Below are positions 27,102 through 63,921 of a stretch of DNA of 64,000 bases, piece after piece. The stretch covers positions 30,357 to 94,356 of IMG/VR virus record IMGVR_UViG_3300005529_000026; one strand, 5' to 3'. The stretch comes from a virus. Numbering within the stretch: position 1 is the stretch's first letter; every line of letters starts with the position of its first letter. A program made the translations under genes and the position numbers. Below the pieces are notes generated by a model, which did not search any database, was not told the DNA's origin, and worked only from the letters and a program-made list of their open reading frames with translations.

Positions 27102-27254
27102 TCAGCCGATGAACAAGCAGCGTTGGCACTGCTCGGTGTGGCTCCAAAACAGAGCCACGGTTTCCATTCTGTGCCCAACAAACGGGCAGACGAGTGTGCC
27201 ACAAACTACTGCTGCTAGTCGCTTCCACAAAGAGACATCCACAGGTAAACTCAC
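27102..27254 (-). CDS. 50-residue Cys-rich miniprotein
   Basis: The GTG overlaps the upstream stop (GTGA) and has GAGG 4 nt before it. Cys pairs VCGTLVC and CQRC could form a zinc ribbon. Part of the coupled gene string. Confidence 0.5.
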   Translation of the reverse strand: MSLPVDVSLWKRLAAVVCGTLVCPFVGHRMETVALFWSHTEQCQRCLFIG

Positions 27255-27649
27255 GCGACCTCTGTAAGCTCAAACTGCCCGAATGGAATGGCGACGGCTC
27301 CATACAAAGCGTCCTTCATCGCTGCCGCACCATCTGCATTCCACGAATGAATAACAACGTTTTCTCCGAGATAACGGCGTCCCGCCAAATACTTAGCCAC
27401 TTGAAAACCAGTTCCTTGAGGGCACGTCCCATCAGCATGAAGAACTCCTAGGTCGTGGTCTAGGAATACGATGTCAAACGGTTGAGGGGAACGTGCAATG
27501 ACCTCAATCGCTTCGTCGGCTGTTTGAACGAGTGTGAGATTGCTGACACGCTGCTTAAACCACGCAATGCGGTTGTCGCTGTCTTCCAGCAGGAGCACAC
27601 GAGCGCCGCGTGGAATTTTTATCTGCACGTTCAATTTCTTTCTCGACAT
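27251..27649 (-). CDS. cyclic-phosphate processing receiver-like protein
   Basis: 132 residues. RVLLLEDSDNRIAWF at the start and DIVFLDHDLG in the middle follow the receiver-like fold of the cPPR family, proposed to act on cyclic phosphates at nucleic acid ends. That fits the RNA-repair genes elsewhere here. The assignment is from motif resemblance only. Confidence 0.6.
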   Translation of the reverse strand: MSRKKLNVQIKIPRGARVLLLEDSDNRIAWFKQRVSNLTLVQTADEAIEVIARSPQPFDIVFLDHDLGVLHADGTCPQGTGFQVAKYLAGRRYLGENVVIHSWNADGAAAMKDALYGAVAIPFGQFELTEVA

Positions 27650-31234: not shown

Positions 31235-31301
31235 TGGGGTGACGGATGGGACTCGAACCCACTACTGGCTGAAGCCAAGTGTCTTCCATACTTCCGTCAC
31301 C
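31235..31301 (-). tRNA. truncated tRNA-like element, amino acid unclear
   Basis: Perfect acceptor stem GTGACGG/CCGTCAC, a normal T arm (GTGGG, TTCGAGT, CCCAT) and an encoded CCA are present, but the whole is only about 66 nt. The D arm is shortened to about 11 nt, the variable region to 1 nt, and the anticodon arm folds as a stem around TTCA rather than a 7-nt loop. It follows tRNA-Tyr by 5 nt. Confidence 0.45.
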
Positions 31302-31306
31302 GTACT

Positions 31307-31396
31307 TGGTGGGGGCGGGAGGAATCGAACCTCCATTCCCCGTAGGGGAGGCGGTTTTACAGACCGCTGGACTTAGCCAGTTCGTCCATCACCCCC
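31307..31396 (-). tRNA. tRNA-Tyr (GUA)
   Basis: Cloverleaf with a 7-bp acceptor stem (one G-U), anticodon loop CTGTAAA giving GUA, a long class II variable arm, a normal T arm and an encoded CCA. Confidence 0.9.
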
Positions 31397-32931: not shown

Positions 32932-33262
32932 TTGAGGAACTGAGTCGCCGTCACTCAGTGCGTTAGCTGCTGATTAAGCAGCCGCCGCAGCCATAGCCAA
33001 AGGCTTGGCAGTTGTTTTTGTCCGCTGATTACGTCAGTCGGCTCACGGATTCGTCCATAGCACCTTCAACCAACCCGTCGAAACTTGGCACGCCCATCAA
33101 AGCCGCTCAGCCCATCTATCGCATGATGGCAGTCCCTAGAAGCACAGGTGCGCTTAACTGTCCGGGTCTGTTGTTCTGAGCGGCTATGGTGGACGTGGCG
33201 GGCATCGCAGCCCGCGTCCGAATCGGTAAAGCACTACTTCATACGAATCAATCTTGGTTGGT
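32932..33262 (-). ncRNA. ssrA: circularly permuted (two-piece) tmRNA
   Basis: Transcript order is the acceptor piece first (33262-33187), ending TTCGGACGCGGG, then CCCGCCACGTCC and ACCA, nearly identical to bacterial tmRNA 3' ends apart from an unusual T-loop. A 91-nt intervening segment follows, closed by a 10-bp helix (33101-33110 with 33176-33185). Then the coding piece starts with GGGCGTG, which pairs with CACGTCC, followed by TTTCGACGGG and a tag frame ending MAAAAA-stop inside hairpin GCTGCT-TAATC-AGCAGC. An ACTGAGT/ACTCAGT hairpin ends it. tmRNA rescues stalled ribosomes with SmpB. Confidence 0.85.
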
Positions 33263-33594: not shown

Positions 33595-33665
33595 CGGTCA
33601 CTCAGGGAATCGAACCCTGTTCCACGTTTTCCGTGAAGTGTGTCTTACCAATAGACGAAGTAGTA
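33595..33665 (-). tRNA. degenerate tRNA-like sequence (Glu-like)
   Basis: Normal length (71 nt), a good D arm (GTC/GAC) and T arm (CAGGG, TTCGATT, CCCTG), but the outer acceptor stem does not pair, no CCA is encoded and the anticodon arm forms a 6-bp stem with loop GAAAA. Probably a non-functional or repurposed tRNA. Confidence 0.35.
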
Positions 33666-33677
33666 GAAGGTTGTTGT

Positions 33678-33756
33678 TGGTAGGCGAGGAAGGAGTTGAA
33701 CCTTCGACCTAGCGATTATCAATCGCTTGCTCTAAACCGGGCTGAGCTACTCGCCT
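33678..33756 (-). tRNA. tRNA-Ile (GAU)
   Basis: Acceptor AGGCGAG/CTCGCCT, anticodon arm AGCGA-TTGATAA-TCGCT giving GAU, normal T arm, encoded CCA. Confidence 0.92.
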
Positions 33757-34379: not shown

Positions 34380-34464
34380 TGGTGCCGGATGAGGGACTCG
34401 AACCCCCACGCCTTGCGGCGGCAGATTCTAAGTCTGCTGTGTCTACCAATTTCACCAATCCGGC
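34380..34464 (-). tRNA. tRNA-Leu (UAG)
   Basis: Acceptor GCCGGAT/ATCCGGC, anticodon arm CAGA-CTTAGAA-TCTG giving UAG, class II variable arm, normal T arm and encoded CCA. Decodes CUA, a codon this phage uses freely. Confidence 0.92.
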
Positions 34465-34739: not shown

Positions 34740-34817
34740 TGGTTGCGGGCACCGGAGTCGAACCGGCTATCTTTGCGTTATGAGCGCAACATGGTTATCC
34801 GTGTCCACTCGCCCGCA
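34740..34817 (-). tRNA. tRNA with CAU anticodon (Met or Ile2)
   Basis: Acceptor TGCGGGC/GCCCGCA, anticodon arm TTGCG-CTCATAA-CGCAA, normal T arm, encoded CCA. The paired T1-A72 argues against an initiator tRNA. Elongator Met and lysidine-modified Ile cannot be told apart here. Confidence 0.88.
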
Positions 34818-34821
34818 GCAC

Positions 34822-35376
34822 TTAAAAGAATATATTTTTACGAAAGCACGTATGTAGGATAGGCGTGTTACTGACGCCTCGTTTTAAGTCTGCGCCGCAC
34901 AGTGTGCGGAGCCTTCTGGATTGCTGCCCTTGGTGGGAGTCGAACCCACATTTCAGGCTGAGCAGGGTACAGGTGCTAATCCGCTTCAGGCGGGGATAGT
35001 CTGTAAAGCCCGCGACAGCCAGCGTCCTGCCAATTAGACGACAACGGCGTAGCGGACAACTAGCGAACCAACCCAGTTCTCCTACATCAGATTTGCCTAC
35101 CGTTCGTGTAGACCGTCGTGCGTCAACCGCGTCCTGACTCTCGTGGACTTCAGCGGCAATCTTCTCCGCTTCGTCAATCGCGGCGTGCAGAACCTGATTG
35201 GCAGTGCGTAGGGCCATCGCGGTGCCCTTCGCCCGCAGAACTTCTTCCTCGTGCAGCGCATGACGTGCGGCGGCAGAACCCTTAGCTTCGAGATTGGACA
35301 GCGTGCGCGGGAAATACTTCTTCATCACAAAAAACGCGATGACCGCGATAACTCCAAGTGCTAAAATCGTTGACAT
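34822..35376 (-). CDS. membrane-anchored coiled-coil protein, 3' end uncertain
   Basis: ATG at 35376 with AGGAGA upstream. One N-terminal transmembrane helix (ILALGVIAVIAFFVM), then a helical region to about residue 100. The last 80 codons run through the tRNA-like gene at 34925-35048 on the same strand, so the natural end is probably near 35050 and the rest may be read-through after an indel. Confidence 0.5.
   Translation of the reverse strand: MSTILALGVIAVIAFFVMKKYFPRTLSNLEAKGSAAARHALHEEEVLRAKGTAMALRTANQVLHAAIDEAEKIAAEVHESQDAVDARRSTRTVGKSDVGELGWFASCPLRRCRLIGRTLAVAGFTDYPRLKRISTCTLLSLKCGFDSHQGQQSRRLRTLCGADLKRGVSNTPILHTCFRKNIFF
34925..35048 (-). tRNA. tRNA-like gene with an enlarged anticodon loop
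   Basis: Acceptor GCCGTTG/CAAGGGC (6 of 7 pairs), D arm GTC/GAC, T arm GTGGG-TTCGACT-CCCAC, but the anticodon stem GGCTG/CAGCC encloses 55 nt instead of 7. The extra sequence folds into smaller hairpins. GCA stands where CCA is expected. It could be an intron-bearing tRNA or a rearranged relic. Confidence 0.45.
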
Positions 35377-36479: not shown

Positions 36480-37619
36480 TTACTGGTATTCGGTGACTTC
36501 TTTGCCGTCCTTGGCCTTGCGGAGCAGGTAGGCTTCGCTGACCGACTTCAGGATGACGCGGCCCAGCTTGGGGTCTTCCCTCTCGAACAGGGGTTTCACT
36601 ACAACCCCTTCCCGCAGGTTGACTCCACACCCAGATACCGTTTCTACGCCGTTTGTAGCCGTTTCTAGCGCCTCGCGGGTGAACTGGCCTAGGTAGACCT
36701 CTGGAACCAGTTCGAGGCCCGCAAATCGGCTCCAAAGCTGAAGTGGCCCGTAGCTGAGGAAGTGACCCTGCCCCGGCTTGCCAACGTAGATGTCAAACAC
36801 TCGGAAACCAAGGTCGGTCGCGTAGCCCAAGTCCTGAATACCGTTTCCGTAGACCTCACCGACCACGAAGATTGCCTCGATTGGAGCACTACCTTCTCCG
36901 TTGAACTCCTGCATTTTCGTGCAGAGCTTGCGGAGCTTGGATTCCAAATCGTGCTTTTTGGCAGCCCGGATGTAGGTATTCCCGGCGTTGGCCTCGTTGT
37001 TTTCGATGATGAACCCGCGTGCCCCTAGTCCCTTGCTAGAAACAGCAAACTGGTCAGTTGCAGGCCAGTACACCGCCTGCATGAGCGTGCCGTGAATCTT
37101 CTCGGTCATCACGACCGGCTCGCCTTCTTGGAAGACGCGCTTGTACGCCTTGATGTTCTCAATGTCGTACCGCAGCAGGTTGAAGTCGCCGCGAGGCCGC
37201 TGAATCTGTCCTGCAAAGTGTGCAGGGATGGGCGGCTCGTACTTCGTGACGCCCAAAACTGTTGCACAGTCTGCGCCTTCGCACAGACACAGAGTTGTGG
37301 CCCCGGCGCTTTCTCCTATCCGAGCAAGCACCTTGCTGTACGGGTAGAGCAAGCCCTGCGAAAGCGTCTTGCGCAGCTTGATGGCCTTGACGCGATTCTT
37401 GGCCGGGCCAGCCAGCTTGCCGGTCAGTCCCAGTTCTTCGAGGATGTCTACCGGCACGATAGAGCCTTCGGGGATGTAGATGGCCAAATCCCCGGAGTTG
37501 AAACTGCCTTTCTGGATGACGCACTTGTAATCCGCGACGTTCGCGGCTACGATAAAGTCTGCTCCTTCAATAGGTTGCACGTCATCCACGCGCACAACTG
37601 GGCATGCAAAATCAGCCAT
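36480..37619 (-). CDS. RNA ligase, Rnl5/DraRnl-like
   Basis: 379 residues from the ATG at 37619 with GGAGG upstream. An N-terminal OB-like domain (to about 150) precedes the nucleotidyltransferase domain with the AMP-accepting lysine in TEKIHGT (Lys174) and later VVGEVYG and GVVVKP motifs. This matches the Deinococcus RnlA type, which seals nicks with a 3'-OH RNA end. A second, T4-type ligase lies at 39.2-40.4 kb. Confidence 0.8.
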   Translation of the reverse strand: MADFACPVVRVDDVQPIEGADFIVAANVADYKCVIQKGSFNSGDLAIYIPEGSIVPVDILEELGLTGKLAGPAKNRVKAIKLRKTLSQGLLYPYSKVLARIGESAGATTLCLCEGADCATVLGVTKYEPPIPAHFAGQIQRPRGDFNLLRYDIENIKAYKRVFQEGEPVVMTEKIHGTLMQAVYWPATDQFAVSSKGLGARGFIIENNEANAGNTYIRAAKKHDLESKLRKLCTKMQEFNGEGSAPIEAIFVVGEVYGNGIQDLGYATDLGFRVFDIYVGKPGQGHFLSYGPLQLWSRFAGLELVPEVYLGQFTREALETATNGVETVSGCGVNLREGVVVKPLFEREDPKLGRVILKSVSEAYLLRKAKDGKEVTEYQ

Positions 37620-37644
37620 TCTAACCTCCATGCAATTTTTCTTC

Positions 37645-37673
37645 TTGACAGTTAAGCGTTTTCATGGTAAACT
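37645..37673 (+). promoter_or_regulatory. consensus promoter on the opposite strand
   Basis: TTGACA, 17 nt, TAAACT with TGG before the -10. It points right, against the local genes, and would make RNA antisense to the acidic miniprotein and phosphoesterase unless it stops in the GTTTGT/ACAAAC element near 37707-37732. Confidence 0.6.
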
Positions 37674-37725
37674 AACACCGCTTGGCTGTCGGGCGAAGAC
37701 TTATAGTTTGTTTTGTGGTGGTTTT

Positions 37726-37881
37726 TTACAAACAGAGACGGTTCAGGAATGACAGAGTGGATAGCTGCTCTGCATCTTCGTAGATGATTTCTGTTTCTTC
37801 ATCTTCTTCAGGATACGGCAGTGATTCGTCTTCTTCGTCGTACAGCACATCGTCTTCAGGAAACGCTCCACTAACTGACAT
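37726..37881 (-). CDS. 51-residue acidic protein
   Basis: Starts immediately after the phosphoesterase stop (GAGGGCTAGATG). Extremely acidic (EEDESLPYPEEDEETEI), the composition of DNA-mimic inhibitors, but no specific match is claimed. Confidence 0.6.
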   Translation of the reverse strand: MSVSGAFPEDDVLYDEEDESLPYPEEDEETEIIYEDAEQLSTLSFLNRLCL

Positions 37882-38697
37882 CTAGCCCTCCGTAGGAATT
37901 GGTCGTTGGTTGATGGTGAACAGGTCGCCTATATTCTCGTCGTACTGCACAATCTCGATAGAAGTTGCAGGGTCGTAGTTGAAAGCATTGAGCGCCACAA
38001 CCCTAGGGCCGGACAATTGCACCACCCGGTGTTTGTGGTAGTGGCCGAAGAAATGGAACCGAGGCTCGCCGCTGCGGTGCAGGTAATTGAAGCCGGGGCA
38101 ACCGCTGGCTTCTTCGTCGGGGTCGAGTCCTAGAATCTTCTTTATTTTCTCTGGGCAGTCACCTTGCTTGGGTAATGGCTGCATGCCGAATGGAGCCTCA
38201 TGGGTAATGAGCACGTCGAACTTGCCCGCGTCCGCTAGTTTGTCAACAGCAGATTTACGCACATGCAGTGCGGCAGCATTAGCCCCCATCCGCTGCCCAC
38301 CATGATTCAGCAGACTCATACGGGCCATCAGAATGCGCCCCTTGTTTTCATAGCTCTTGGGGCTGTAGTTTCCCCAAACTGAGCCGACCTTGATTCCTAG
38401 AACATCTGTGATGCCCCCGTCAGGCAGAAGCGTCATGTTGATGACACGCTGCGGGTCTTGCATCCAAGCATCTAGAAGCCGGTAGCTTTCGTGGTTGCCG
38501 GGGTTAACGTACGTCGTAATAGGTGCTGGCAGATGGCGTGTCCAAAACAGATTGAATTGCCTGCTTCCCACTCCGAGGTCACCGACATGAAGCACGGCGT
38601 CGAATTTCATTCCTAGCCGGTCTTCTAGGTTGATGAGGTACTCGTACATGCTGAGAATCTCTCCGTGCGTGTCGCCAACCACAGCGATGTTTTTCAT
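37882..38697 (-). CDS. calcineurin-like metallophosphoesterase
   Basis: 271 residues with the full motif set: VVGDTHG (start), HVGDLGVG, NPGNHES, ITHEAPFG and FGHYHKH. A two-metal phosphatase, diesterase or nuclease. It is different from the phosphoesterase at 6-7 kb in length and motif spacing. Confidence 0.82.
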   Translation of the reverse strand: MKNIAVVGDTHGEILSMYEYLINLEDRLGMKFDAVLHVGDLGVGSRQFNLFWTRHLPAPITTYVNPGNHESYRLLDAWMQDPQRVINMTLLPDGGITDVLGIKVGSVWGNYSPKSYENKGRILMARMSLLNHGGQRMGANAAALHVRKSAVDKLADAGKFDVLITHEAPFGMQPLPKQGDCPEKIKKILGLDPDEEASGCPGFNYLHRSGEPRFHFFGHYHKHRVVQLSGPRVVALNAFNYDPATSIEIVQYDENIGDLFTINQRPIPTEG

Positions 38698-38957
38698 TGA
38701 GAAACTCCCATGTTGCGCTTGTAAATGTCCCGGTAAGCATCACGCGCCTTTCGCACCACTTCCGCGTATTCGCGTGAAGCTCGCTCTTGCTGTTCACGTT
38801 CGTCTTGAATGCACAGCATGCAACGGTATGTCGGGCTTCCAGCGAGTTGCGCAATGGATTCTTGCCAGTCCATTTCGCAGTCATGCACGGCACACCAGCC
38901 CATCTTTGCTAGCCGCCGCCTAGCCATGCCTGCGATAAGACGCTTAATTGAGTTCAT
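38694..38957 (-). CDS. small zinc-binding protein
   Basis: 87 residues from the ATG overlapping the upstream stop (ATGA). CAVHDCE and CMLC pairs around residues 20-45 could bind zinc; the rest is a charged helix. Confidence 0.55.
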   Translation of the reverse strand: MNSIKRLIAGMARRRLAKMGWCAVHDCEMDWQESIAQLAGSPTYRCMLCIQDEREQQERASREYAEVVRKARDAYRDIYKRNMGVSQ

Positions 38958-39220
38958 TTGCCGAGAATCTCCTTCATATCCATACCTGTTCCATTGCACG
39001 GCTGGCAGACAGCCGTACTCCACAGCAGCACGAGCGGGTTAATGTCTAGAAACCAGATGCGGCCCTGTTTATCTACGGCGTTAGGATTGGGCCTAACCCA
39101 AGTCGGGTGCCCGCCCGTTGCGCCGTACTCGTCCGTCTCTCCGGTTTTGACAAAGCCGCCTGTGATTCCAGCCTCAACCTCGCCGCGCCCTTTGCACACA
39201 GGACAAATCGGCAACATCAT
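38954..39220 (-). CDS. DnaJ-type zinc-finger protein
   Basis: 88 residues with CPVCKGRGEV at the start and CQPCNGTGM near the end: two CxxCxGxG repeats as in DnaJ. No J domain, so it is not a DnaJ protein itself. Confidence 0.6.
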   Translation of the reverse strand: MMLPICPVCKGRGEVEAGITGGFVKTGETDEYGATGGHPTWVRPNPNAVDKQGRIWFLDINPLVLLWSTAVCQPCNGTGMDMKEILGK

Positions 39221-40356
39221 TCGCCGTCTCTCCTGAAGGACTCGTCTTTTGTGCAGTTCGGTCTAATCATCTTCCAGATGGTCGCTGTGGGGTCGCCGCC
39301 GTCTAGCATTTGAAAGCAAATCGAGGCGTACTGCCGACTCTCTGGCTGGTTGAAGTGAAACGCACACGCCTTGCGGTGCAGCCGGGTGTCTCCGTTGTGT
39401 ACGGGTCGGTTGATGTAAACTTCGTGTGCCGTTTCTAGAATCCGGTGGTATTCGTGGTCGAGCTTGTCACGCCACTCCGTGAGCCAAGCACGGAAATGCT
39501 CTGGCATGGTCTCATCGTTAATCCAAACGCGAATCTGGTCGTCTTTGCCTTCGGACATCAACTCCCAAACCGCTCTAGGATTCACGCCCGTCACGATGCG
39601 GTGTAGTCGAACATAGTCCTCGAATTTCACCTTAACCTTGACGGGCGGGCATGACGAGCCACGCGAGTAGGTCAGCACATATCCTTCGCGCCCGGCTTCA
39701 TTTTCAGTGGCAACCTCAGACAATGATTTCGAGTAACGCTGAACGACACGGACACCATTTGCTTTGGCCCACTTCCACAGTTCTTCGTAACCCATTTCCG
39801 CCCCGGTTCGGATGTTCACCATTCCGGTCAGAATGCACGTCTCGAAGTCGTACTTGCACACGATGCGGTTTTCGTCGTAGATAATCTCGAACAGAGGCGT
39901 CCAGCCTTCAGGCCACACCATGAACGAAAATGGGATAGGTTCGCGCTTCGCACGCAGCCAGTTAGTCGCCCACTTCGCCTGCGGGGAAGTGAACGAGCCG
40001 CGAGTGGCTATGCCGACGTACTCGCCGTACTGGTAAAGAATTCCTAACGAGCCGTCTAGCTTTTCTAGAACCAAAGGCTGAACGTTAGGTAGATTCGCTT
40101 CCATCGTTTCGGGAATAGAAGCGGTGTTGAGGTTGTGGAATTTCTTGTACGGGCGTGCAATGACGTTCCCTTGCTTGTCTACAATTAGTCCACGGCAATA
40201 ATCAATTGTGCCGTCACCCCAAGTCCCATAAATCTGGGCGTAGGGCGTGTAGTTGTAGATTTCAAGAGGAAGTTCAGGATGCTGCTGAACGGAAATTAGC
40301 CCGTTATCAATGTGCTGCTTGAGAAGGTTAACATCGAGCAGTTGAGAGATGAGCAT
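39217..40356 (-). CDS. rnlA: RNA ligase 1 (T4 Rnl1-like)
   Basis: 379 residues from the ATG at 40356; the much longer open frame upstream covers other genes. The motif LEKLDGSLG places the adenylated lysine at residue 99, the same position as in T4 Rnl1. YCRGLIVD, FEIIYDENRIV and GYVLTY also fit. Together with the Pnkp gene 0.9 kb upstream it forms the T4-type tRNA repair pair. Confidence 0.88.
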   Translation of the reverse strand: MLISQLLDVNLLKQHIDNGLISVQQHPELPLEIYNYTPYAQIYGTWGDGTIDYCRGLIVDKQGNVIARPYKKFHNLNTASIPETMEANLPNVQPLVLEKLDGSLGILYQYGEYVGIATRGSFTSPQAKWATNWLRAKREPIPFSFMVWPEGWTPLFEIIYDENRIVCKYDFETCILTGMVNIRTGAEMGYEELWKWAKANGVRVVQRYSKSLSEVATENEAGREGYVLTYSRGSSCPPVKVKVKFEDYVRLHRIVTGVNPRAVWELMSEGKDDQIRVWINDETMPEHFRAWLTEWRDKLDHEYHRILETAHEVYINRPVHNGDTRLHRKACAFHFNQPESRQYASICFQMLDGGDPTATIWKMIRPNCTKDESFRRDGE

Positions 40357-40727
40357 TTTGACCAATTCTCCGGCGCGGGCAGGGTCTTCTTGAGTTGAAG
40401 ACCTTCTTCCTTGGCACTGTCCATGTGCGCAATTTCTCTGACGGTATATTCCCGCCAGCACAGCGGGTGTCCGGTACGTGCAGGGCTTACAACTGAATCG
40501 AATTGCTTTGTCGTAAGGATGGTTTTCGCAACGAACGCAGCGGAGCCGTCTGACTGCGGGAATACTTCTCCCATTACTACGCCGTCGCGGTTGTGCCATG
40601 CCCAGCCACGCTCGCCGCAGTAGAGCAGGCGCATCGTCTCGCCCCCAACCGGGAAGCGGAATGCACGAGTACGCTGCTCTAGGCGTTTGTTCATGTGATT
40701 CGTGACGATGAACCTGATAAGTTGCAT
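40296..40727 (-). CDS. protein of unknown function
   Basis: 143 residues with AGGGGG before the ATG; the last 20 codons overlap the ligase start. Beta-rich core. No family recognised. Confidence 0.55.
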   Translation of the reverse strand: MQLIRFIVTNHMNKRLEQRTRAFRFPVGGETMRLLYCGERGWAWHNRDGVVMGEVFPQSDGSAAFVAKTILTTKQFDSVVSPARTGHPLCWREYTVREIAHMDSAKEEGLQLKKTLPAPENWSKCSSLNCSMLTFSSSTLITG

Positions 40728-40736
40728 TTTGGCCCC

Positions 40737-40916
40737 CTAGCTCTGCCCAAATCCTTCCGCAGTCCACACCCAATGTAAAAGCTGGCGCGGTGTGCAGTTC
40801 AACGCTAAGCTATTGTCCACGGCAAGCGCCATGACGAAGCCGACAGGTAGAAGCACGGCTGCGATAGCGCGAAAGGGAAGACCGAGATAGCGACCGATGA
40901 TTTTGAGCACCTTCAT
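40737..40916 (-). CDS. small membrane protein
   Basis: 59 residues from the ATG overlapping the upstream stop. One transmembrane segment (about 14-34). Unknown. Confidence 0.55.
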   Translation of the reverse strand: MKVLKIIGRYLGLPFRAIAAVLLPVGFVMALAVDNSLALNCTPRQLLHWVWTAEGFGQS

Positions 40917-41209
40917 TTCAGTTCCTCCAAGATGTGCCACACGAGACCATTTGCATCTTGCAATGTGGCAATGCAGTCGTAGGTTTTAGAGCTATCTCCG
41001 AACGGGACGCCGGTAAAGGCAACGATAATCACCCTAGGAACCGTTGGCTTGGCGTCGAAATCGTCTGGGTGAATCTCCCAAAGAATGAGATTGCCGCGCT
41101 GGATTTGAACGTCCAGCACGGCAGCCTTCGGGTGTAGTGGGAGAAGGTACGTTCCGACTTGAAACGGCAACTTGTGCTTGTGGATGACATTCTCAACGAT
41201 GCGCGACAT
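40913..41209 (-). CDS. protein of unknown function
   Basis: 98 residues from the ATG just after the Pnkp stop, with GAAGGG upstream. Beta-rich (LPFQVGTYLLPLHPKAAVLD). A small family of phage proteins with this look is known but has no assigned role. Confidence 0.6.
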   Translation of the reverse strand: MSRIVENVIHKHKLPFQVGTYLLPLHPKAAVLDVQIQRGNLILWEIHPDDFDAKPTVPRVIIVAFTGVPFGDSSKTYDCIATLQDANGLVWHILEELK

Positions 41210-41210
41210 T

Positions 41211-42161
41211 TTAGAAATTCCCTTCTGCAACTTGGTAGACCTTGACTCCATTTGCTCGCCACATATCAACAACACGTTGGCGGTCATCAATCACGAAGGC
41301 GATGCGCTCCTTCGGGAGTCGGTTTAGAATTTCTTGTTTCACCACGGTGTCGTCTCGCTTGTCGCCGCCCTTGCGCATGAAGATGTGGCGATATTTGACG
41401 CCGTACTTTTCTAGCCAAGTAGTTGTTTTGAACCCGGCCTTGTCCATCGGTCGTCCTGACACGATGACGACTTCGTATTCCTTGGACTCGCTTAGAGCTT
41501 TCACCCACTTCAGAACGGCTTCAATCGGTTCATCTTCGTTGCAGTGCTCGAAGAAAGCGTTCCAGTCTTTTTTTGCTCTGCCGGTGCCCCTGCAAGTAGG
41601 GCAGCGAGAATCTTGAGTGCCGCCGTTTCCGTTGCACGCTGTGCAAGGGCGTGACTCTACAAACTGTCTACGCGCCCGCACATCGGACAGGGTGCCATCC
41701 ATGTCCACCAAGACCAGTTGCTTGTCTACGGGAAAATGAAGCAGCCCATTGTCCAGCGCCATGCGCTCGATGACATGACGGCCCACCCGCGCTTTGCCTT
41801 CACGTTGCGCGTCCCGGCGAATCAGTTCCTCGATGCGAATATCTAGAAATGACGAGTCCATCACAAGAGGAACGCCGACACTCTGCGCTAGCTGATGCCA
41901 GCGCTCGCGGGTTCTGTGGTTCAGGTTGGTGTTGTCCACGACAACGCTCTTGCCAGCAGCTAGGGCTGACAATGCCCGGTCTTCAGCGATGCGGCGCACT
42001 TGCTTTTCGGTCTCGTGACTGAAACGATATTCAGGATTGAGTTCTAGCCGAATGTCGTCCCAATTGACGCGAACCCAACCCTCAGCTTCTAGATTCTTGG
42101 CTTCTGTTGATTTCCCTGATGCAGGAAGGCCGACAAGCAGCAACAGCACTTGCTTATTCAT
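41211..42161 (-). CDS. pseT: polynucleotide 5'-kinase / 3'-phosphatase (T4 PseT-like)
   Basis: 316 residues. P-loop GLPASGKST (11-19) heads the kinase half; DMDGTLSDV near residue 155 starts the HAD phosphatase half. Within the phosphatase, about 20-40 residues after that motif, is an inserted DnaJ-type zinc finger (CTACNGNGG, CPTCRGTGR), unusual for this family. It prepares broken RNA ends (5'-phosphate, 3'-OH) for the ligases. Confidence 0.88.
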   Translation of the reverse strand: MNKQVLLLLVGLPASGKSTEAKNLEAEGWVRVNWDDIRLELNPEYRFSHETEKQVRRIAEDRALSALAAGKSVVVDNTNLNHRTRERWHQLAQSVGVPLVMDSSFLDIRIEELIRRDAQREGKARVGRHVIERMALDNGLLHFPVDKQLVLVDMDGTLSDVRARRQFVESRPCTACNGNGGTQDSRCPTCRGTGRAKKDWNAFFEHCNEDEPIEAVLKWVKALSESKEYEVVIVSGRPMDKAGFKTTTWLEKYGVKYRHIFMRKGGDKRDDTVVKQEILNRLPKERIAFVIDDRQRVVDMWRANGVKVYQVAEGNF

Positions 42162-44282: not shown

Positions 44283-44446
44283 GCGGCTGCCGCCATTTGC
44301 ACGCAGTACGCGCTGCGTTGCAGGTGTTTGTGATGGCAGCCGTTGGAGAGGCAGTGATTGCGCCCGCAAAAGACGCAGAAGATGGTTTCTTCAACGTCAT
44401 AGCCACAGTTGTCACAGAGGTTGACTTCTACGCCTTGTTCCACCAT
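44279..44446 (-). CDS. 55-residue zinc-ribbon protein
   Basis: ATG with GAGAGG upstream, inside the end of the AAA+ gene. CDNCG and CVFCG knuckles plus C/H residues (CLSNGCHHKH) form a likely double zinc site. Confidence 0.55.
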   Translation of the reverse strand: MVEQGVEVNLCDNCGYDVEETIFCVFCGRNHCLSNGCHHKHLQRSAYCVQMAAAA

Positions 44447-45531
44447 TTTCCTCTCTCCTTTGCGGATGTTGGTTGCAGCGGAATTTCCGCTAATCTCTCG
44501 AAAACCGCCGATACTTCCGGCTTGATAAGCTCGCGTGTGAACCTGTATTCGCCTTTCTTGTAAGTCACCGCAACGATTTCGTTTGGCCCGGCTTGACCAG
44601 AAGAAGCTAGGCGAGCTAGAGGCTGAACAATCTTTCTCTCGATGACACGGTTCAGTTCTCGTCCGCCATATTCTGCGTTGTAACCCTCGTCCAGCAGGGC
44701 TTTCTTGGCTTCCTTCGAGAATGTGACAAGGAACCCTTTGCCAGATTTCAAAATCCGTTCCTGAACTTTCGCTAGTTCTAGTTCAAGGATTTGCTCGATA
44801 TCAGTCTTCGTCAGCGTGCGGAACACCACCATCTTGTCAATGCGATTCATAAACTCCGGCGAGAACTTGCGCTTCGCCGCAGCGATGGCGGTGCTTTCTA
44901 CTTGTGAGTGGTGGGCGTCGTCCGCAGCGAATGACTGCGTGCCGAAGCCAAACTGTGAGCCTTGCAGTTTCGCAATGTCACCAGCGCCGACATTGGAAGT
45001 CATAAAGATGAAGGTGCGGGAGAAGTCCACGCGACGGTTATCACCCATCGTGAGAGTGGCCTTGTCCATGATTCCCAACATCAACTTCCAAAGCGCATCG
45101 CTTGCTTTTTCGATTTCATCAAACAGCAGCAGAGAAACCTTCAAAGAATCGGTGTGCCAGCGGTCAAGCAGGTCTTGAGCTAACGCGGGGTGAGTCTCGC
45201 GGTGCCCTAGATAACCGGGCGGTGAGCCAATGAGCTTGCAGATTTCGTGGCTGTGCTGGAATTCTGAGCAATCAATTTTGAGCACTGCGCCGGGGTCGCC
45301 GTAGAAAGATTCCGCAACTGCTTCCACGAGGCGCGTCTTGCCGGTGCCGGTCGGCCCTAGGAACATCAAAGTTCCCAGCGGTCGGTTTGGCTTGTTCATC
45401 CCTGCCAAGTAGGTCTCGTACATCTCAACCATGCGAGTAACGGCTTCGTCTTGGCCGATAACCCGCGCATGCAGGTCGGCTTCTAGCTTCAGGGCTGACT
45501 CGCTGCGAATGTTGGGATTAAGAATTTCCAT
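44428..45531 (-). CDS. Clp-type AAA+ ATPase (single-module, ClpB D2-like)
   Basis: 367 residues. Walker A GPTGTGKT (59-66), Walker B LLLFDEIEKA, sensor MTSNVGAG and the small C-terminal domain with YGGRELNRVIERKI match the second AAA+ module of ClpA/ClpB. The N-domain and first module are absent, so it is not a complete disaggregase. Possible chaperone or unfoldase for phage or host proteins. Confidence 0.82.
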   Translation of the reverse strand: MEILNPNIRSESALKLEADLHARVIGQDEAVTRMVEMYETYLAGMNKPNRPLGTLMFLGPTGTGKTRLVEAVAESFYGDPGAVLKIDCSEFQHSHEICKLIGSPPGYLGHRETHPALAQDLLDRWHTDSLKVSLLLFDEIEKASDALWKLMLGIMDKATLTMGDNRRVDFSRTFIFMTSNVGAGDIAKLQGSQFGFGTQSFAADDAHHSQVESTAIAAAKRKFSPEFMNRIDKMVVFRTLTKTDIEQILELELAKVQERILKSGKGFLVTFSKEAKKALLDEGYNAEYGGRELNRVIERKIVQPLARLASSGQAGPNEIVAVTYKKGEYRFTRELIKPEVSAVFERLAEIPLQPTSAKERGKWWNKA

Positions 45532-48714: not shown

Positions 48715-48894
48715 TTACTGCGGCTGGTAGTCTTGGTACAGTGCTAAGTGGTCAGCACACAAGGCATTGCCGGAATAAATGGTGATGGAGTCCGGTGCTT
48801 TCTCAAAAGCTAGCTCCCAAGTATTCGCGTCAACATAGCCCATGCGCCGCTTGGCTTCACGTAGCGTTTTTTGTAGGCAGAATGCGCACTTCAT
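48715..48894 (-). CDS. small CxxC protein
   Basis: 59 residues from the ATG overlapping the upstream stop. CAFC at the start and CADH near residue 46 could form one zinc site. Confidence 0.55.
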   Translation of the reverse strand: MKCAFCLQKTLREAKRRMGYVDANTWELAFEKAPDSITIYSGNALCADHLALYQDYQPQ

Positions 48895-49316
48895 CGGTCT
48901 CCTCGCATAAACACAATGAACAGGTCGGCTAACCCACACTGCGCCTTAGGATGCAAATAGGTTTCGGGAAAGCGCACGTAAGGGCGCTTGTTCATCGTGG
49001 CGGCTTTCGCCAGCATGATTATCATGCCGACGATATGCCGGTAACCCAGCCCTTCGCCCTTCAGCGTGGCCGGAGGTTGGATGTCGGGAAACACGCAATT
49101 CCACGCTTTTTGAAAGACCGGAATTGTCTTGAGCAGCGCCCATTCCGGCTCGCTCAGATTATCGGCAGTCGCTACGGTCTCCGTGGGAGTGATTTCTAGA
49201 ACGTCTTCAGAGAGTGGCTTGAGGTTTACGTCGCCGGAATGACAGATGACGGTGATAGGTTTGGTTTCAACCTCGTGCTCGGTTTCGTTTGCCTTGATGC
49301 GCAGTGTGTTCGGCAT
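48891..49316 (-). CDS. protein of unknown function
   Basis: 141 residues, beta N-terminus and helical rest. Overlaps the next upstream gene by 50 nt. No family recognised. Confidence 0.55.
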   Translation of the reverse strand: MPNTLRIKANETEHEVETKPITVICHSGDVNLKPLSEDVLEITPTETVATADNLSEPEWALLKTIPVFQKAWNCVFPDIQPPATLKGEGLGYRHIVGMIIMLAKAATMNKRPYVRFPETYLHPKAQCGLADLFIVFMRGDR

Positions 49317-50058
49317 TGGAGTTTCCTTTCAGAATCGTGACACCCCGGTGTTCTTCCAACATCACTTTTAGGTCTGCAACGGAATCATCGGGGTACATCT
49401 CCGGGCGAAACGGGTGCATGTACTCGGCTAGCGTGATGTCTTCGCCCATCATCCAACGGGTCACCGCTTTGTAGCCGTCAGAACAAATTTTGTAGTTGAT
49501 TGGCGTAATGCTAGGGTCAATCAGCTTCATGCCGATGTCCCGCGCCTTCTCCCAGTCAAAGATTGATGCCCGCGTGATTGCGCTAGGCGGAATGAGGCCG
49601 TAGTGACAGCACGTTCCCATGTGGTTCACGGAATGCTGCCACAGGTCGCCGCCGAACCACCAGATGTGCTCGCGGAACCAGATGGTGCGCTCTTTCATCA
49701 GGTTCCCCTTGCCTTTGAGCTTCTTTTCGATGGCAGCTAGGGGTCGCTGAATTCTGGGGTTGTCCCAGTGCTGACCTCGGCTAACCTGCTCTAGAAAGTC
49801 TTCATCAGGAAGCAACAACTGCTGGTCGAGCAGGTCAGTGTCAATTTCCAAGACTCCTAGCTCAGTGCTGTTGTCGTCTTTCGTCGCACAGTGTGCGAAG
49901 TAACCGGCGTAGCAACTGGTTAGATACACGCAATTTGGGTTGCTTTCGACGGTGTGTTTCCAATTGCCATTCTTGTTGGTCAGCCCGGCTCGCGGTTTCA
50001 GCCCTTCTTTCAAAGCTAGGCGGGCCACTTCAGCGCTCGTGCCGTGGTAGAGCTTCAT
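49267..50058 (-). CDS. ADP-ribosyltransferase-like protein (Tpt1/PARP fold)
   Basis: 263 residues. YHGTSAEVARLALKEGLKPR at the start supplies the H-type NAD motif, and CVYLTSCYAGYFAHCA resembles the second motif of RNA 2'-phosphotransferase (KptA/Tpt1) and PARP-fold enzymes. Tpt1 removes a splice-junction 2'-phosphate from RNA, which would fit the RNA-repair set, but a protein- or DNA-modifying role is equally possible. Confidence 0.55.
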   Translation of the reverse strand: MKLYHGTSAEVARLALKEGLKPRAGLTNKNGNWKHTVESNPNCVYLTSCYAGYFAHCATKDDNSTELGVLEIDTDLLDQQLLLPDEDFLEQVSRGQHWDNPRIQRPLAAIEKKLKGKGNLMKERTIWFREHIWWFGGDLWQHSVNHMGTCCHYGLIPPSAITRASIFDWEKARDIGMKLIDPSITPINYKICSDGYKAVTRWMMGEDITLAEYMHPFRPEMYPDDSVADLKVMLEEHRGVTILKGNSNAEHTAHQGKRNRARG

Positions 50059-52451: not shown

Positions 52452-52778
52452 TTAAGCAGTTGCTCCAATGCCTTGCGGTTTCAGTCCGTACTTGCGCATG
52501 ATGCGCTCGATGAGGAACCACGTTGAACGCAAACCTAGCGAGCTAGAGCCGAACGCTTTCACCTGTGCAAGCTCTTTCCGATAGGATTCGTACATGGCTT
52601 CCAAGTCATAGCCTTCTGTGCGGGCGTACTCGATGGCTTCATCGTACAGACCAAACTGAATTGCTTTGTGAACACTCAGCAACACTTTGGCTGCATGCTT
52701 ATGTCCGGGTGCAGGCGAGCCGTCTTCTTGCAAGTGCGCTTTGCGAATGTTGCGGACGAACGAGGTTGTGACTCTCAT
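52452..52778 (-). CDS. helical protein of unknown function
   Basis: 108 residues, all helical. GTAGACA lies 5 nt after the stop. Overlaps the upstream gene by 4 nt. Confidence 0.55.
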   Translation of the reverse strand: MRVTTSFVRNIRKAHLQEDGSPAPGHKHAAKVLLSVHKAIQFGLYDEAIEYARTEGYDLEAMYESYRKELAQVKAFGSSSLGLRSTWFLIERIMRKYGLKPQGIGATA

Positions 52779-53689
52779 ACTGCCGCTCCTTCAGAGATTG
52801 GGACGCCTTGCTCCGTGAGTTGCTTCAGTATCCACGCCTTTGCGCTTTCGGGTGTGTCCCACTGCGATTGTCCCCACATTGCCCCGGCTAGGTAAATGTC
52901 CCCTTGCTCGTGCTCCTCAATTTCCTCAACGGAGCCGTAGCCGGGCGTGAACGGCATCACTTCCTTGATGCCTTCCTGCACCGAGAACATCAGCCGACGC
53001 AGCATGGACGGGTGCGCCATACCGAAGATGACGCGGCCCAAGTCTAGAGGTTGGTCGGCATTCTTGACGCGGATGTGAGCTTCGTAGATGTAACGCTTCT
53101 TCTGTTTGTGAAACCCAGAAGTATCTACGATGTCGAGAATCACGGCGCGGCCAGCGGCCTCAAACAAATCCACCAGCGCTGCCACTGCTGCGCCGCGATT
53201 GATGAGCACTCCGCTAGACACGCCACCCGAAGCACTGACATTGAAAACGATGTGGATGAACTTCTTCCCGCCGGAGCCTTCTTCTTCGTGCGTCTCCGTA
53301 TACATCCAGCACTCTGGTACACCTTGATTCACCAGAGCGATATCGTAATCGTTGCCAGTAACGTCAAACAGCACTTCAGGTTTTTCGATTACCTGACTCA
53401 GACGGTTGTAGAGAGAGGCAGTGAAGTTCTTAGCTTTGTCTAGACCTTCCTGCCAGCCTTCAGTTGCGAGCTTCACGGCTTCTTCAAATGTTTTGGTCTC
53501 CGCGAACTTTTCGGCTTCTCTGCCAGTAGCACGGCTCTGCGCCTGTTGATGGTAATAGTTGTCGTAATTGATGCGCTCTGTGCGGTTGATTGCGAAGTTG
53601 AGAAACTCGCCCCAGTGTTCAAACTTGATTTTGAGGCGGGTGTTTTCGTTTTCGTCTACGTTCTCTAACAGGTTGTATTCGGCTGCCAC
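52775..53689 (-). CDS. phage-type protein of unknown function, paralogue 1
   Basis: 304 residues. The core around VLFDVTGNDYDIALVNQGVP and SASGGVSSGVL is shared with the protein at 56.2-57.1 kb, with which it aligns over most of its length. A phage family whose role I do not know; length and conserved Asp/Asn suggest an enzyme or structural scaffold. Confidence 0.65.
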   Translation of the reverse strand: MAAEYNLLENVDENENTRLKIKFEHWGEFLNFAINRTERINYDNYYHQQAQSRATGREAEKFAETKTFEEAVKLATEGWQEGLDKAKNFTASLYNRLSQVIEKPEVLFDVTGNDYDIALVNQGVPECWMYTETHEEEGSGGKKFIHIVFNVSASGGVSSGVLINRGAAVAALVDLFEAAGRAVILDIVDTSGFHKQKKRYIYEAHIRVKNADQPLDLGRVIFGMAHPSMLRRLMFSVQEGIKEVMPFTPGYGSVEEIEEHEQGDIYLAGAMWGQSQWDTPESAKAWILKQLTEQGVPISEGAAV

Positions 53690-53712: not shown

Positions 53713-54222
53713 TTACATGCTGTCAACCAAATCCTTTGCTTCCTTGAGTCCCAGCGATGTCACTTCGCGGATGCGCTTGATTGCTTCTAGCTTGCGTCCG
53801 TGGTAGACCAGTTCTTTTGCTTCTGCATACACAAGCGGAGGCAGACTAGTTGCCGCATGTCCGGTGCGATGAATTGCACGCTTTGCAATTTCGTCTACTA
53901 CCGCCTTTGACTCTGCGAGTCCCAGACCAGCAGTGTCGCGCACTTGCTTGATGCATTGAATTCGGACGCCAACCTGAGCGTTGGCTTCGTCATCACTCAG
54001 AGTGCCGTAGATGGTGTCATACAGCGAGCGCGGTATGCGCCAGCCCGCTACGGTCACCACTGCGGCGTGCTCATGCTGAAAGCCACCAATGAGCGCAGCG
54101 TTAATCTGCTCGCCTAATTCAGCTAGCTCGGAGCGACTCATGTTCGCAGCTACGTTGATGCCTTCCTGCTCACCAATGTGCAGGATGAATGACTCACCAC
54201 TTTTCACAATGAGAGATTGCAT
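53713..54222 (-). CDS. protein with two L7/L12 C-terminal-like modules
   Basis: 169 residues from the ATG at 54222 with GGAG upstream. Two repeats, IQCIKQVRDTAGLGLAESKA near residue 90 and LEAIKRIREVTSLGLKEAKD near the end, follow the ribosomal L7/L12 C-terminal domain pattern (KVxxIKxxRxxTGLGLKEAKDLV). The N-terminal half is unlike L7/L12. It may bind translation factors, or the fold may be reused for something else. Confidence 0.65.
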   Translation of the reverse strand: MQSLIVKSGESFILHIGEQEGINVAANMSRSELAELGEQINAALIGGFQHEHAAVVTVAGWRIPRSLYDTIYGTLSDDEANAQVGVRIQCIKQVRDTAGLGLAESKAVVDEIAKRAIHRTGHAATSLPPLVYAEAKELVYHGRKLEAIKRIREVTSLGLKEAKDLVDSM

Positions 54223-54310
54223 AACGGTGTCTCCAACTATGGTGTCAAACCGTCCCATTCGCCTCTCTCACGCGCACTCCCGTCCTAGCTTGCTACACGG
54301 TTTCACGAGT

Positions 54311-56177: not shown

Positions 56178-57056
56178 TTACTCGCTAATTTTTACGCCTT
56201 GGGCCTTGAGTTGGTCAATGACCCAGCGCTGCGCCGCTTCCTCAGAAGCCCACTGCGGTTCCGAGTAGAGAGACCCGGCGATGTAGATGTCGCCCTGCAT
56301 TGACTTGGGGACTTCCATTACACGCCCGTAGCTCGAGCTATGTTGCTTCATAAAAGCGTCGTATTCCTCGAAAAGCGAGAAGTGAAGACGGCGGAAGCTA
56401 GCGGGGTGAGCTAGCGCGAACATCAGACGGTCAATATCAAGAGGTTGGTCAGCCGTCTTGATTGTGGTCTGCCAGAGCCAATGCGCGTTAGCGCACGCTA
56501 GGATTACTTCGACGTGATGCCCCGCCAGTTCCAGCAGTTCCACGACAGCGCCGACCGCCGCGCCCTTGCGGGCCATCACGTTCGCAGAGACGCCGCCCGA
56601 TGTGCAGTTATTGAATACGAGCCGGATGAACTTTCCCGGCCCATCTTCCAGTTTTTCCTCAGAGTAGTACCAGCATTCTGGTACACCCTGATTGACTAGG
56701 CCGATGTCGTAATCCTGCCCGGTCACATCAAACTGAATCTCAGCTTTCGCCATGATGCTGCCGATTTTCTCGCGCACCACAGCGGACAGCTTCGCGGCTG
56801 CGCTGCTACCTTCCGGCCATCCTTCGCGGGCCATGCGCAGCGCATCTTCCCAGCTAGCTTTTCCGTACCAGCCGCCGCTTTCGTTTTTGCGGCTTGATAG
56901 CTGGGTTGCGAAGCTGGATTGTGGACGATTAGCAGCGCGTTCCACCATTTCGCCCCAGCTATCAAACTTGATAACTTTCCAGCCGTCTGCCGTTTCGTGA
57001 ATCTCGTTCTTCAGCTTGCGGCATTCTTCGATGGTGCTGCCGTATTTGCGTGCCAT
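56178..57056 (-). CDS. phage-type protein of unknown function, paralogue 2
   Basis: 292 residues, related to the 52.8 kb gene: both contain FDVTGxDYD, LVNQGVPECW, SGGV and an ADQPLDI/L segment before AHP. Independent transcription (own terminator). Two paralogues in one phage suggest an important but unrecognised role. Confidence 0.65.
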   Translation of the reverse strand: MARKYGSTIEECRKLKNEIHETADGWKVIKFDSWGEMVERAANRPQSSFATQLSSRKNESGGWYGKASWEDALRMAREGWPEGSSAAAKLSAVVREKIGSIMAKAEIQFDVTGQDYDIGLVNQGVPECWYYSEEKLEDGPGKFIRLVFNNCTSGGVSANVMARKGAAVGAVVELLELAGHHVEVILACANAHWLWQTTIKTADQPLDIDRLMFALAHPASFRRLHFSLFEEYDAFMKQHSSSYGRVMEVPKSMQGDIYIAGSLYSEPQWASEEAAQRWVIDQLKAQGVKISE

Positions 57057-62764: not shown

Positions 62765-63682
62765 TTAGAGATTTTTCAGCGGGCTGACACGCTCCAACTC
62801 CTCCTGTTGGTATTTGGTGCTGATATGCAGATAACCCTTCAACACATCGAGAGATTTGTGGCCGGTCATGGATTGCAGCTTACCGATGTCGCCGCCGTTT
62901 TCTAGGTAGAGAGTGCAGCAAGCGTGACGCAGAGTGTGCGGGCTGAGAGTTTTGATGCCGAGACGACGGCGCACAGCCGCGAACGCATGGTCGAACATGA
63001 ATACTGTGGCTGGTTCGCCGGACTGGTTGACGAAAACACGGTCACTCTTGGCGAAATGCTCTCGCCTACGTAGCCAGCCTTTCATAAGGCGCACCATGTC
63101 CTTTGTGATTCCCACAAGACGCATGTTCGTTTTTCCCTCCTCCGGCACGATGATGGTCTGTTCATCGAGCTTTAGGTGTTCCAACTTCAAATGACAAAGC
63201 TCTCCGACACGCATTCCGGTTTCAAGCATGAGAGAAAACGCAACATAATTGCGGTAACCGGAGCGCTTGTTCACGTTGAAAGCAGCTTTGAAAGCCTTCA
63301 TGTCCTTGCGCTCAGGAATCACCTTCCGACTGGGGGTTTTAGGTATAGGCGGGAGCAGCTTGTACCACGGCTTCAGTCCATCCTCTTGGCAGTCTTCACT
63401 TTTTTCAACCCAGCGAAAAAGCGCCCGCACCGACCGAAGGATTTTGTAGCGCGTGGCGTCACTGATGTTCTTGTTGTCCTGAATCGAATCTAGGAAATCG
63501 AGCACGTCAGGACGCTTCATGGCTTCGTACGTGATGATTCCGCGCTCGCGCATGAACTCGAAGAACCACTTCAAGTCCCAGCGGTAGCTCTCAAGCGTGC
63601 GCGGGCGTGCGAACTTTCTTGCCCCTTCCCGGCCCCTCTCCCGCGACCTCAGAAACAGCCTTTCAAGCTCCTCGAAGCTCAT
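62765..63682 (-). CDS. int: tyrosine recombinase (integrase)
   Basis: 305 residues, XerC/D-like. N-terminal SAM-like domain (5-90); catalytic residues Arg158 (TGMRVGE), His249/Arg252 (PHTLRHA), His275 (GHKS) and Tyr284. Catalyses site-specific recombination between phage and host attachment sites. Beside a tRNA-Lys half at 63.9 kb, a likely attachment site. Confidence 0.9.
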   Translation of the reverse strand: MSFEELERLFLRSRERGREGARKFARPRTLESYRWDLKWFFEFMRERGIITYEAMKRPDVLDFLDSIQDNKNISDATRYKILRSVRALFRWVEKSEDCQEDGLKPWYKLLPPIPKTPSRKVIPERKDMKAFKAAFNVNKRSGYRNYVAFSLMLETGMRVGELCHLKLEHLKLDEQTIIVPEEGKTNMRLVGITKDMVRLMKGWLRRREHFAKSDRVFVNQSGEPATVFMFDHAFAAVRRRLGIKTLSPHTLRHACCTLYLENGGDIGKLQSMTGHKSLDVLKGYLHISTKYQQEELERVSPLKNL

Positions 63683-63879
63683 TTTTTGCCTCCCGAATCA
63701 ACTGACTTTGACCTTTTTTCTGCTAAATCATTGCATCTACAAGCATTATACTTGCACTACAAGTCATTCAATGCGGCAGGCTAACTGCTTGACCGTATTG
63801 AATAAACCCTTCGTATCCTACAAATTGCAATGTTTTTGCAGAGTATCACAAGCAATCGCGTTGCGTCAATCGCAAGCAA
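63683..63879. other. AT-rich gap between integrase and tRNA half
   Basis: About 200 bp, AT-rich, no gene; contains short repeats such as CAATCGC and GCAAGCAATTG (63852-63883). Probably the arm-site region of the integrase and the attachment site. Confidence 0.45.
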
Positions 63880-63921
63880 TTGATTAAGAGTCAGTTGCTC
63901 TGCCAGTTGAGCTACGCGCCC
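63880..63921 (-). other. 5' half of tRNA-Lys (CUU), candidate attachment site
   Basis: GGGCGCG, TA, a normal D arm and the anticodon loop CTCTTAA (CUU), then the 3' half is missing and sequence diverges. TTATAAT lies about 50 nt upstream, so a tRNA promoter may be present. Adjacent to the integrase. It marks an att core inside a tRNA-Lys gene, either on the phage or at a prophage boundary. Confidence 0.6.

Follow-up and report, generated by a model that had tools for sequence, protein, structure and literature searches.

A T4-type end-healing enzyme and two different RNA ligases form a probable RNA-repair set beside a phage tRNA/tmRNA island

Known phage RNA-repair sets include the tRNA-Lys repair that T4 carries out following PrrC (recounted in PMC10264068) and the tool-kits described in section 3.4.9 of a jumbo-phage survey (Iyer et al. 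2021, PMC7824862), where RNA ligases, PNKP-HAD proteins, cREC (cyclic-phosphate-processing receiver-like) proteins, calcineurin-like phosphatases, KptA and tRNAs are assigned to counter-defence RNA repair and several ligases within one phage are proposed to have distinct targets. Here, we analyse a 64,000-base stretch of viral DNA (the window; bases 30357-94356 of a 94,356-base IMG/VR record from an unclassified bacterial virus) in which a T4-type kinase-phosphatase (Pnkp), an Rnl1-type RNA ligase, a DRB0094/Rnl5-type RNA ligase and a metallophosphoesterase lie next to an island of tRNA and transfer-messenger RNA (tmRNA) genes. The locus is a further example of these known sets, with a few uncommon parts, and we consider it likely, judging from sequence, that it forms a translation-protection module that would heal and reseal RNAs cut by host ribonucleases.

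The repair genes all lie on the minus strand and span 5.7 kb. In transcription order, with coordinates given here and below as window positions and lengths in amino acids (aa), the open reading frames (ORFs) are:

41211-42161, minus strand: T4-type Pnkp, 316 aa (profiles, alignment to the PDB, motifs)
41574-41645, minus strand: Cys4 insert within Pnkp, about 24 aa (DnaJ_CXXCXGXG profile)
40913-41290, minus strand: DUF7352 protein, 125 aa from the first TTG (profile match, 2e-10)
40296-40727, minus strand: 143-aa ORF overlapping the start of the Rnl1-type ligase (ORF call)
39217-40356, minus strand: T4 Rnl1-type RNA ligase, ATG start, 379 aa (profiles, PDB match, motifs)
38954-39220, minus strand: 88-aa ORF sharing 4 bases with the stop of the Rnl1-type ligase (ORF call)
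38694-39023, minus strand: 109-aa ORF (ORF call)
37882-38697, minus strand: calcineurin-like metallophosphoesterase, 271 aa (Pfam, PDB match, motifs)
37726-37881, minus strand: 51-aa acidic ORF in the gap between phosphoesterase and Rnl5-type ligase (ORF call)
36480-37631, minus strand: DRB0094/Rnl5-type RNA ligase, 383 aa (profiles, OB domain, motifs)

A 288-aa protein and then the tRNA/tmRNA island (31.2-35.0 kb) come after the Rnl5-type ligase. As every one of these genes is read from the minus strand, the island is downstream (3') of the repair genes, the reverse of the order given in a preliminary description of this DNA. That description included neither the insert in Pnkp nor the phosphoesterase gene that separates the two ligase genes. 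Its central observation, that a Pnkp, an Rnl1-like ligase with Lys99 and an Rnl5-like ligase lie within 6 kb, is confirmed by profiles and motifs. The overlaps and short gaps on one strand suggest that the genes are co-expressed in one or a few transcripts. The real start of the DUF7352 protein probably lies further in, and the 143-aa ORF has no match in Pfam or PHROG.

The Pnkp matches PF25109 (1.4e-31), AAA_33 (1.9e-22) and phrog_505 (2e-66), and its domain order is that of T4, with an N-terminal P-loop kinase followed by a C-terminal HAD phosphatase. Both halves are intact in their motifs, the kinase retaining the P-loop GLPASGKST and NWDDIR and the phosphatase DMDGT at residue 153, SGR at 235 and DDR at 292, so that the full T4 Pnkp signature (Walker A, NxDDxR, DxDGT, SGR and DDRxxVVxMWR) is present and the protein is a predicted RNA 5'-kinase/3'-phosphatase. 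Shortly after DMDGTLSD, the phosphatase domain carries a zinc-finger-like insert of the form CxxCxGxG-x-CxxCxGxG, which appears DnaJ-like in profile searches (DnaJ_CXXCXGXG, 7.6e-5, at aa 166-194). When 86 other distinct phage Pnkps were compared, a like insert was found in one (from locus L182), and none was found in the Pnkps of four named phages with long matches; we therefore rejected the insert as a common feature of Pnkp.

The two ligases belong to different families. The Rnl1-type ligase scores 53.2 bits against PF09511 (RNA_lig_T4_1; cut-off 28.3), has T4 Rnl1 as its best PDB match (2e-17) and aligns with it at Lys99 (KLDGS), E157 (FEII), E224 (EGYV) and K240/K242; by its sequence it is Rnl1-like, not a T4 Rnl1 equivalog. 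The Rnl5-type ligase scores 210.9 bits against NCBIfam TIGR02306 (DRB0094), above the equivalog cut-off of 151, has an N-terminal OB domain (PF21189, 57.9 bits) and finds a Naegleria RNA ligase as its best PDB match. It keeps Lys178 (EKIHGT), E259, E341 and K362, and its motif I reads KIHG, not KxDG; three of four aligned phage relatives have KLHG. The catalytic lysines, whose loss would by the preliminary description have refuted its reading, are thus both kept, as Lys99 and Lys178.

T4 is among the described phages closest to the locus. Both have one end-healer and two ligases, with the same Pnkp domain order and motifs and with Lys99 and K240/K242 of the Rnl1-type ligase at the T4 positions. 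The second ligase of T4 is Rnl2, whereas that of the window is of the DRB0094/Rnl5 type, and the window differs further in the phosphoesterase amid the ligases, the Cys4 insert and an Rnl1 well under the equivalog cut-off. The closest match among named phages in neighbourhood is Streptomyces phage Yaboi and its relatives (Karimacvirus and others), where the Rnl1 and Pnkp pair (gp206/210 in Yaboi) has tRNAs and a tmRNA around it and a related metallophosphoesterase follows after about 6 kb; in contrast to the window, their tmRNA is one-piece, their host group is another, and no Rnl5-type ligase was seen in the stretch. Caulobacter phages CcrColossus and CcrPW have an Rnl5-type ligase 35% identical to ours, tRNAs and a permuted (two-piece) tmRNA 3.7 kb away, but neither Pnkp nor Rnl1 was found in their records. 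The tmRNA of CcrColossus (JX100810, L009, 24940-25233, minus strand, 83.8 bits) is unannotated, 3.7 kb from the ligase, as is that of CcrPW (L005, 14912-15206). With the tool-kits of Iyer et al. section 3.4.9, the window shares ATP-dependent RNA ligases, PNKP-HAD, cREC, calcineurin-like phosphoesterases and tRNAs, which occur there in varying combinations and with the same proposed role; its record, at 94 kb, is below jumbo size and may be a fragment. Neither a Dbr1 likeness nor a zinc-finger insert in Pnkp is described in the passages of that survey cited here.

We surveyed 80 viral loci seeded with Pnkp and 80 seeded with Rnl1. An Rnl1 ligase lies within 10 kb at 47 of the 80 Pnkp-seeded loci, in many directly adjacent, and the same pairing is found in Arthrobacter phages Bauer (gp70-71) and Mimi (gp180/182, with a tRNA nucleotidyltransferase). 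An Rnl5-type ligase is within 10 kb at 34 of the 80 Rnl1-seeded loci, four of which also have Pnkp. Counts of complete triples left out 'Rnl5' matches scoring 25-50 among the Pnkp-seeded loci, as these may be Rnl2-type; Pnkp, Rnl1 and Rnl5 fall within 20 kb of each other at L018, L110, L114, L124, L152 and L196, and all three genes are adjacent at L114 and L196. Two further records (G017 and G023) contain Rnl5, Rnl1, a PNKP phosphatase and a permuted tmRNA. Megablast against phage records returned no close relatives of the locus, and single-sequence patterns found no relatives of the phosphoesterase or the Rnl1-type ligase in viral contigs. A variant arrangement occurs in Ruegeria phage RpAliso (L263), where an RNA ligase adjoins a separate small 'polynucleotide kinase' ORF and a second, stand-alone PNKP-type phosphatase lies 1.2 kb away, together with a proteasome-beta-like gene.

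The end chemistry of T4 Pnkp and Rnl1 and the preference of Rnl5 relatives for nicks allow a mechanism to be proposed. Host ribonucleases, such as anticodon nucleases and toxin-type RNases, would cleave a tRNA or another structured RNA; at the break, Pnkp would open or remove the 2',3'-cyclic or 3' phosphate and add a 5' phosphate; the Rnl1-type ligase would reseal breaks in single-stranded loops, for example the anticodon loop; and the Rnl5-type ligase would most likely reseal 3'-OH/5'-phosphate nicks in base-paired RNA. It is plausible that the two ligases are suited to different break types in this way. Clearing cyclic or 2'-5' ends that Pnkp handles poorly may be the task of the phosphoesterase and perhaps also of the cREC protein, while the phage tRNAs would make up for lost species and the tmRNA would release stalled ribosomes.

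RNA repair against tRNA- or rRNA-cutting defences, as the preliminary description had it, fits the motifs, the packed gene order, the pairing of Pnkp with Rnl1, and the accounts in PMC7824862 (section 3.4.9) and PMC10264068; one component, a KptA-like role for an ART-like protein, did not hold up and is taken up below. Several points weigh against translation protection. The Rnl1-type ligase scores 64.9 bits against the T4 RnlA equivalog model TIGR02308, far under its cut-off of 242, and the substrate preference of T4 can therefore not be assumed for it. The assignment of single-stranded breaks to one ligase and nicks to the other draws on relatives studied elsewhere. tRNAs were within 10 kb at one of eight triple-set loci in our first survey, and nearness to tRNAs is thus no constant trait of the triple. 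Finally, presence, motifs, order and neighbourhood of the genes are what we observe, and we infer activities, substrates and an anti-defence role from homology and gene order.

The phosphoesterase bears on a different reading. It matches PF00149 (5.3e-9) and keeps all its metal-site motifs (GDTHG, GDLG, GNHE, THEAP and GHYH). Searched alone against the whole PDB, its sole sequence match is Entamoeba Dbr1 (4e-5), and a four-member profile of the phage phosphoesterase family finds the same protein at 5e-9, with the next family at 4e-4. Dbr1 is the RNA lariat debranching enzyme, a 2'-5' phosphodiesterase. The distinctive metal-binding Cys of Dbr1 (GCVHG) aligns with Asp9 (GDTHG) of the phage protein, which also has no DBR1 C-terminal domain and no second Pfam domain; because both the Cys and the C-terminal domain are absent, we rejected Dbr1 as an identification. 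Single-sequence AlphaFold models were unusably poor for this protein and for the ART-like protein (predicted local distance difference test scores of 36 and 37).

A cREC protein is encoded 8.8 kb away from the repair genes:

27251-27649, minus strand: cREC protein (PF20274)

It matches PF20274 at 1.2e-14 (51.4 bits; cut-off 27) with the motif FLDHDLG, and the 'cPPR-like' protein of the preliminary description is thereby a genuine cREC domain. It is possible that it helps the repair set. The ART-like protein (49267-50058), which had been proposed to process 2'-phosphate ends, has no Pfam match, and a search for KptA/Tpt1 (PF01885) was negative for the record but positive for control genomes. 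Removal of 2'-phosphates by this protein is therefore unsupported, and we rejected a KptA role for it.

These two enzymes could instead destroy host signalling nucleotides, such as the cyclic oligonucleotides and ADP-ribose cyclic phosphates of CBASS, type III CRISPR and Thoeris, and merely travel with the repair genes. We regard this as a real possibility, albeit one we lean against. PMC7824862 gives phage enzymes of the calcineurin-like and cREC kinds both roles, and the nearest solved protein to the phage phosphoesterase family is a 2'-5' phosphodiesterase. The position of the gene argues for repair, however: it is packed in with an RNA ligase on each side, and in viral contig L155 a relative directly adjoins an Rnl5-type ligase. 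The stretch of that contig from 1449 to 11167 holds, besides the phosphoesterase-Rnl5 ligase pair, 18 tRNAs (with Sec-UCA and Pyl-CUA anticodon calls), a tmRNA and a ROOL RNA.

Two further readings would take the ligases away from RNA repair. The Rnl1-type ligase matches PHROG 562, whose name, 'RNA ligase and tail fiber protein attachment catalyst', raises the idea that it serves mainly in virion assembly, as in tail-fibre attachment by T4 gp63, and that its nearness to Pnkp is incidental. We judge this quite unlikely, as the gene has small early-type genes around it and shares the locus with Pnkp, the phosphoesterase and the second ligase, and its relatives adjoin Pnkp in other phages. Less likely still is that replication or repair in the phage is the main task of the ligases and Pnkp, with DNA or RNA-DNA hybrids as substrates: T4 Pnkp is active on DNA too, but the Rnl5-type ligase scores above the curated RNA-ligase cut-off of TIGR02306 and the other ligase has T4 RNA ligase 1 as its closest match.

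The neighbouring island contains four of the five tRNAs called by ARAGORN and a permuted tmRNA:

34740-34817, minus strand: tRNA-Met(CAU) (ARAGORN)
34380-34464, minus strand: tRNA-Leu(UAG) (ARAGORN)
33678-33756, minus strand: tRNA-Ile(GAU) (ARAGORN)
32974-33249, minus strand: permuted (two-piece) tmRNA (RF04321, 83.4 bits; cut-off 47)
31307-31396, minus strand: tRNA-Tyr(GUA) (ARAGORN)

The tmRNA match, which ARAGORN did not call, spans the full RF04321 model with the 3' half ahead of the 5' half. Its tag frame, read by hand, finishes in ...TAKPLAMAAAAA-stop, and such a poly-alanine tail is unusual. A tRNA-like gene at 34925-35048 (minus strand) has acceptor, D and T arms, but its anticodon arm is enlarged by about 50 bases, which fold into a long hairpin. 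It scores 39.4 bits with Rfam and is called Arg-CCU with an intron by ARAGORN; shuffled sequences give no call. We found no relatives carrying the same insert, and ARAGORN, run with its intron option, reports comparable genes at about 20 of 179 viral loci; on these two grounds splicing of an intron by the ligases was not upheld, and we take the gene as probably a tRNA that has decayed or is otherwise unusual. Two degenerate tRNA-like elements lie nearby on the minus strand, a very short one at 31238-31301 (tRNA-Sec, 27.9 bits, below cut-off; a UCA anticodon is possible) and one at about 33600-33665 whose acceptor stem lacks pairing.

Permuted tmRNAs have already been reported in phages: of 133 distinct phage tmRNAs, 53 are of this kind, mostly aquatic (PMC9004378). 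We counted those above cut-off in 50 records with Rnl5-type ligases and 50 Rnl1-seeded records, and found them in 11 and none respectively (Fisher p 5e-4). In six of 12 records (the window, CcrColossus, CcrPW, L115, L117 and L135) the permuted tmRNA lies within 6 kb of the Rnl5-type ligase; against random placement this proximity is not significant (combined p 0.06). As host lineage confounds the record count, permuted tmRNA being typical of alpha- and beta-proteobacteria, cyanobacteria and their phages, and as the positional p is 0.06, a functional link was not upheld and the association is a lead, not a result. That the Rnl5-type ligase has phage-encoded RNA, not host tRNA, as its substrate, joining the pieces of the phage's own split tmRNA or other duplexed phage RNA with the help of end trimming by the Dbr1-like phosphoesterase, is the least likely reading of all, favoured by these counts and distances, weakened by the confounding and the lack of significant clustering, and at odds with the Caulobacter two-piece tmRNA, which functions unsealed according to the passage of PMC9004378 that cites Keiler 2000. 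Were it true, sealing of a split tmRNA would be a maturation step that two-piece tmRNA is not known to undergo.

Other genes in the window, on the minus strand where stated, include a 141-aa protein (48891-49316, minus) with weak likeness to the later part of the PARIS AriA ATPase (PADLOC 7.8e-4; 0.003 for Pfam AAA_15, which is below cut-off); it may be a decoy fragment. A protein with a ribosomal L7/L12 C-terminal domain (53713-54258, minus; 1.4e-15) is flanked by two DUF7192 paralogues (52775-53689 and 56178-57056), and a 367-aa protein at 44428-45531 (minus) is a stand-alone ClpB/ClpA-type D2 AAA+ domain. Close to the record end, a tyrosine integrase (62765-63682, minus) adjoins a weak tRNA match (63853-63921, minus). 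Together these are a possible attachment site, and the phage may therefore be temperate; no relatives of the integrase were found in the bacterial genomes searched.

Bacteria commonly cut tRNA and other RNAs of translation as a last-line defence, to which phages respond with enzymes that repair the RNA, with spare tRNAs and with the rescue of ribosomes. The locus described here combines all three responses in one small stretch, and adds to them a Dbr1-like phosphoesterase amid the ligases and, within the end-healing enzyme, a zinc-finger-like insert. Translation protection by this set would, if confirmed, help to explain why phages retain two different RNA ligases.

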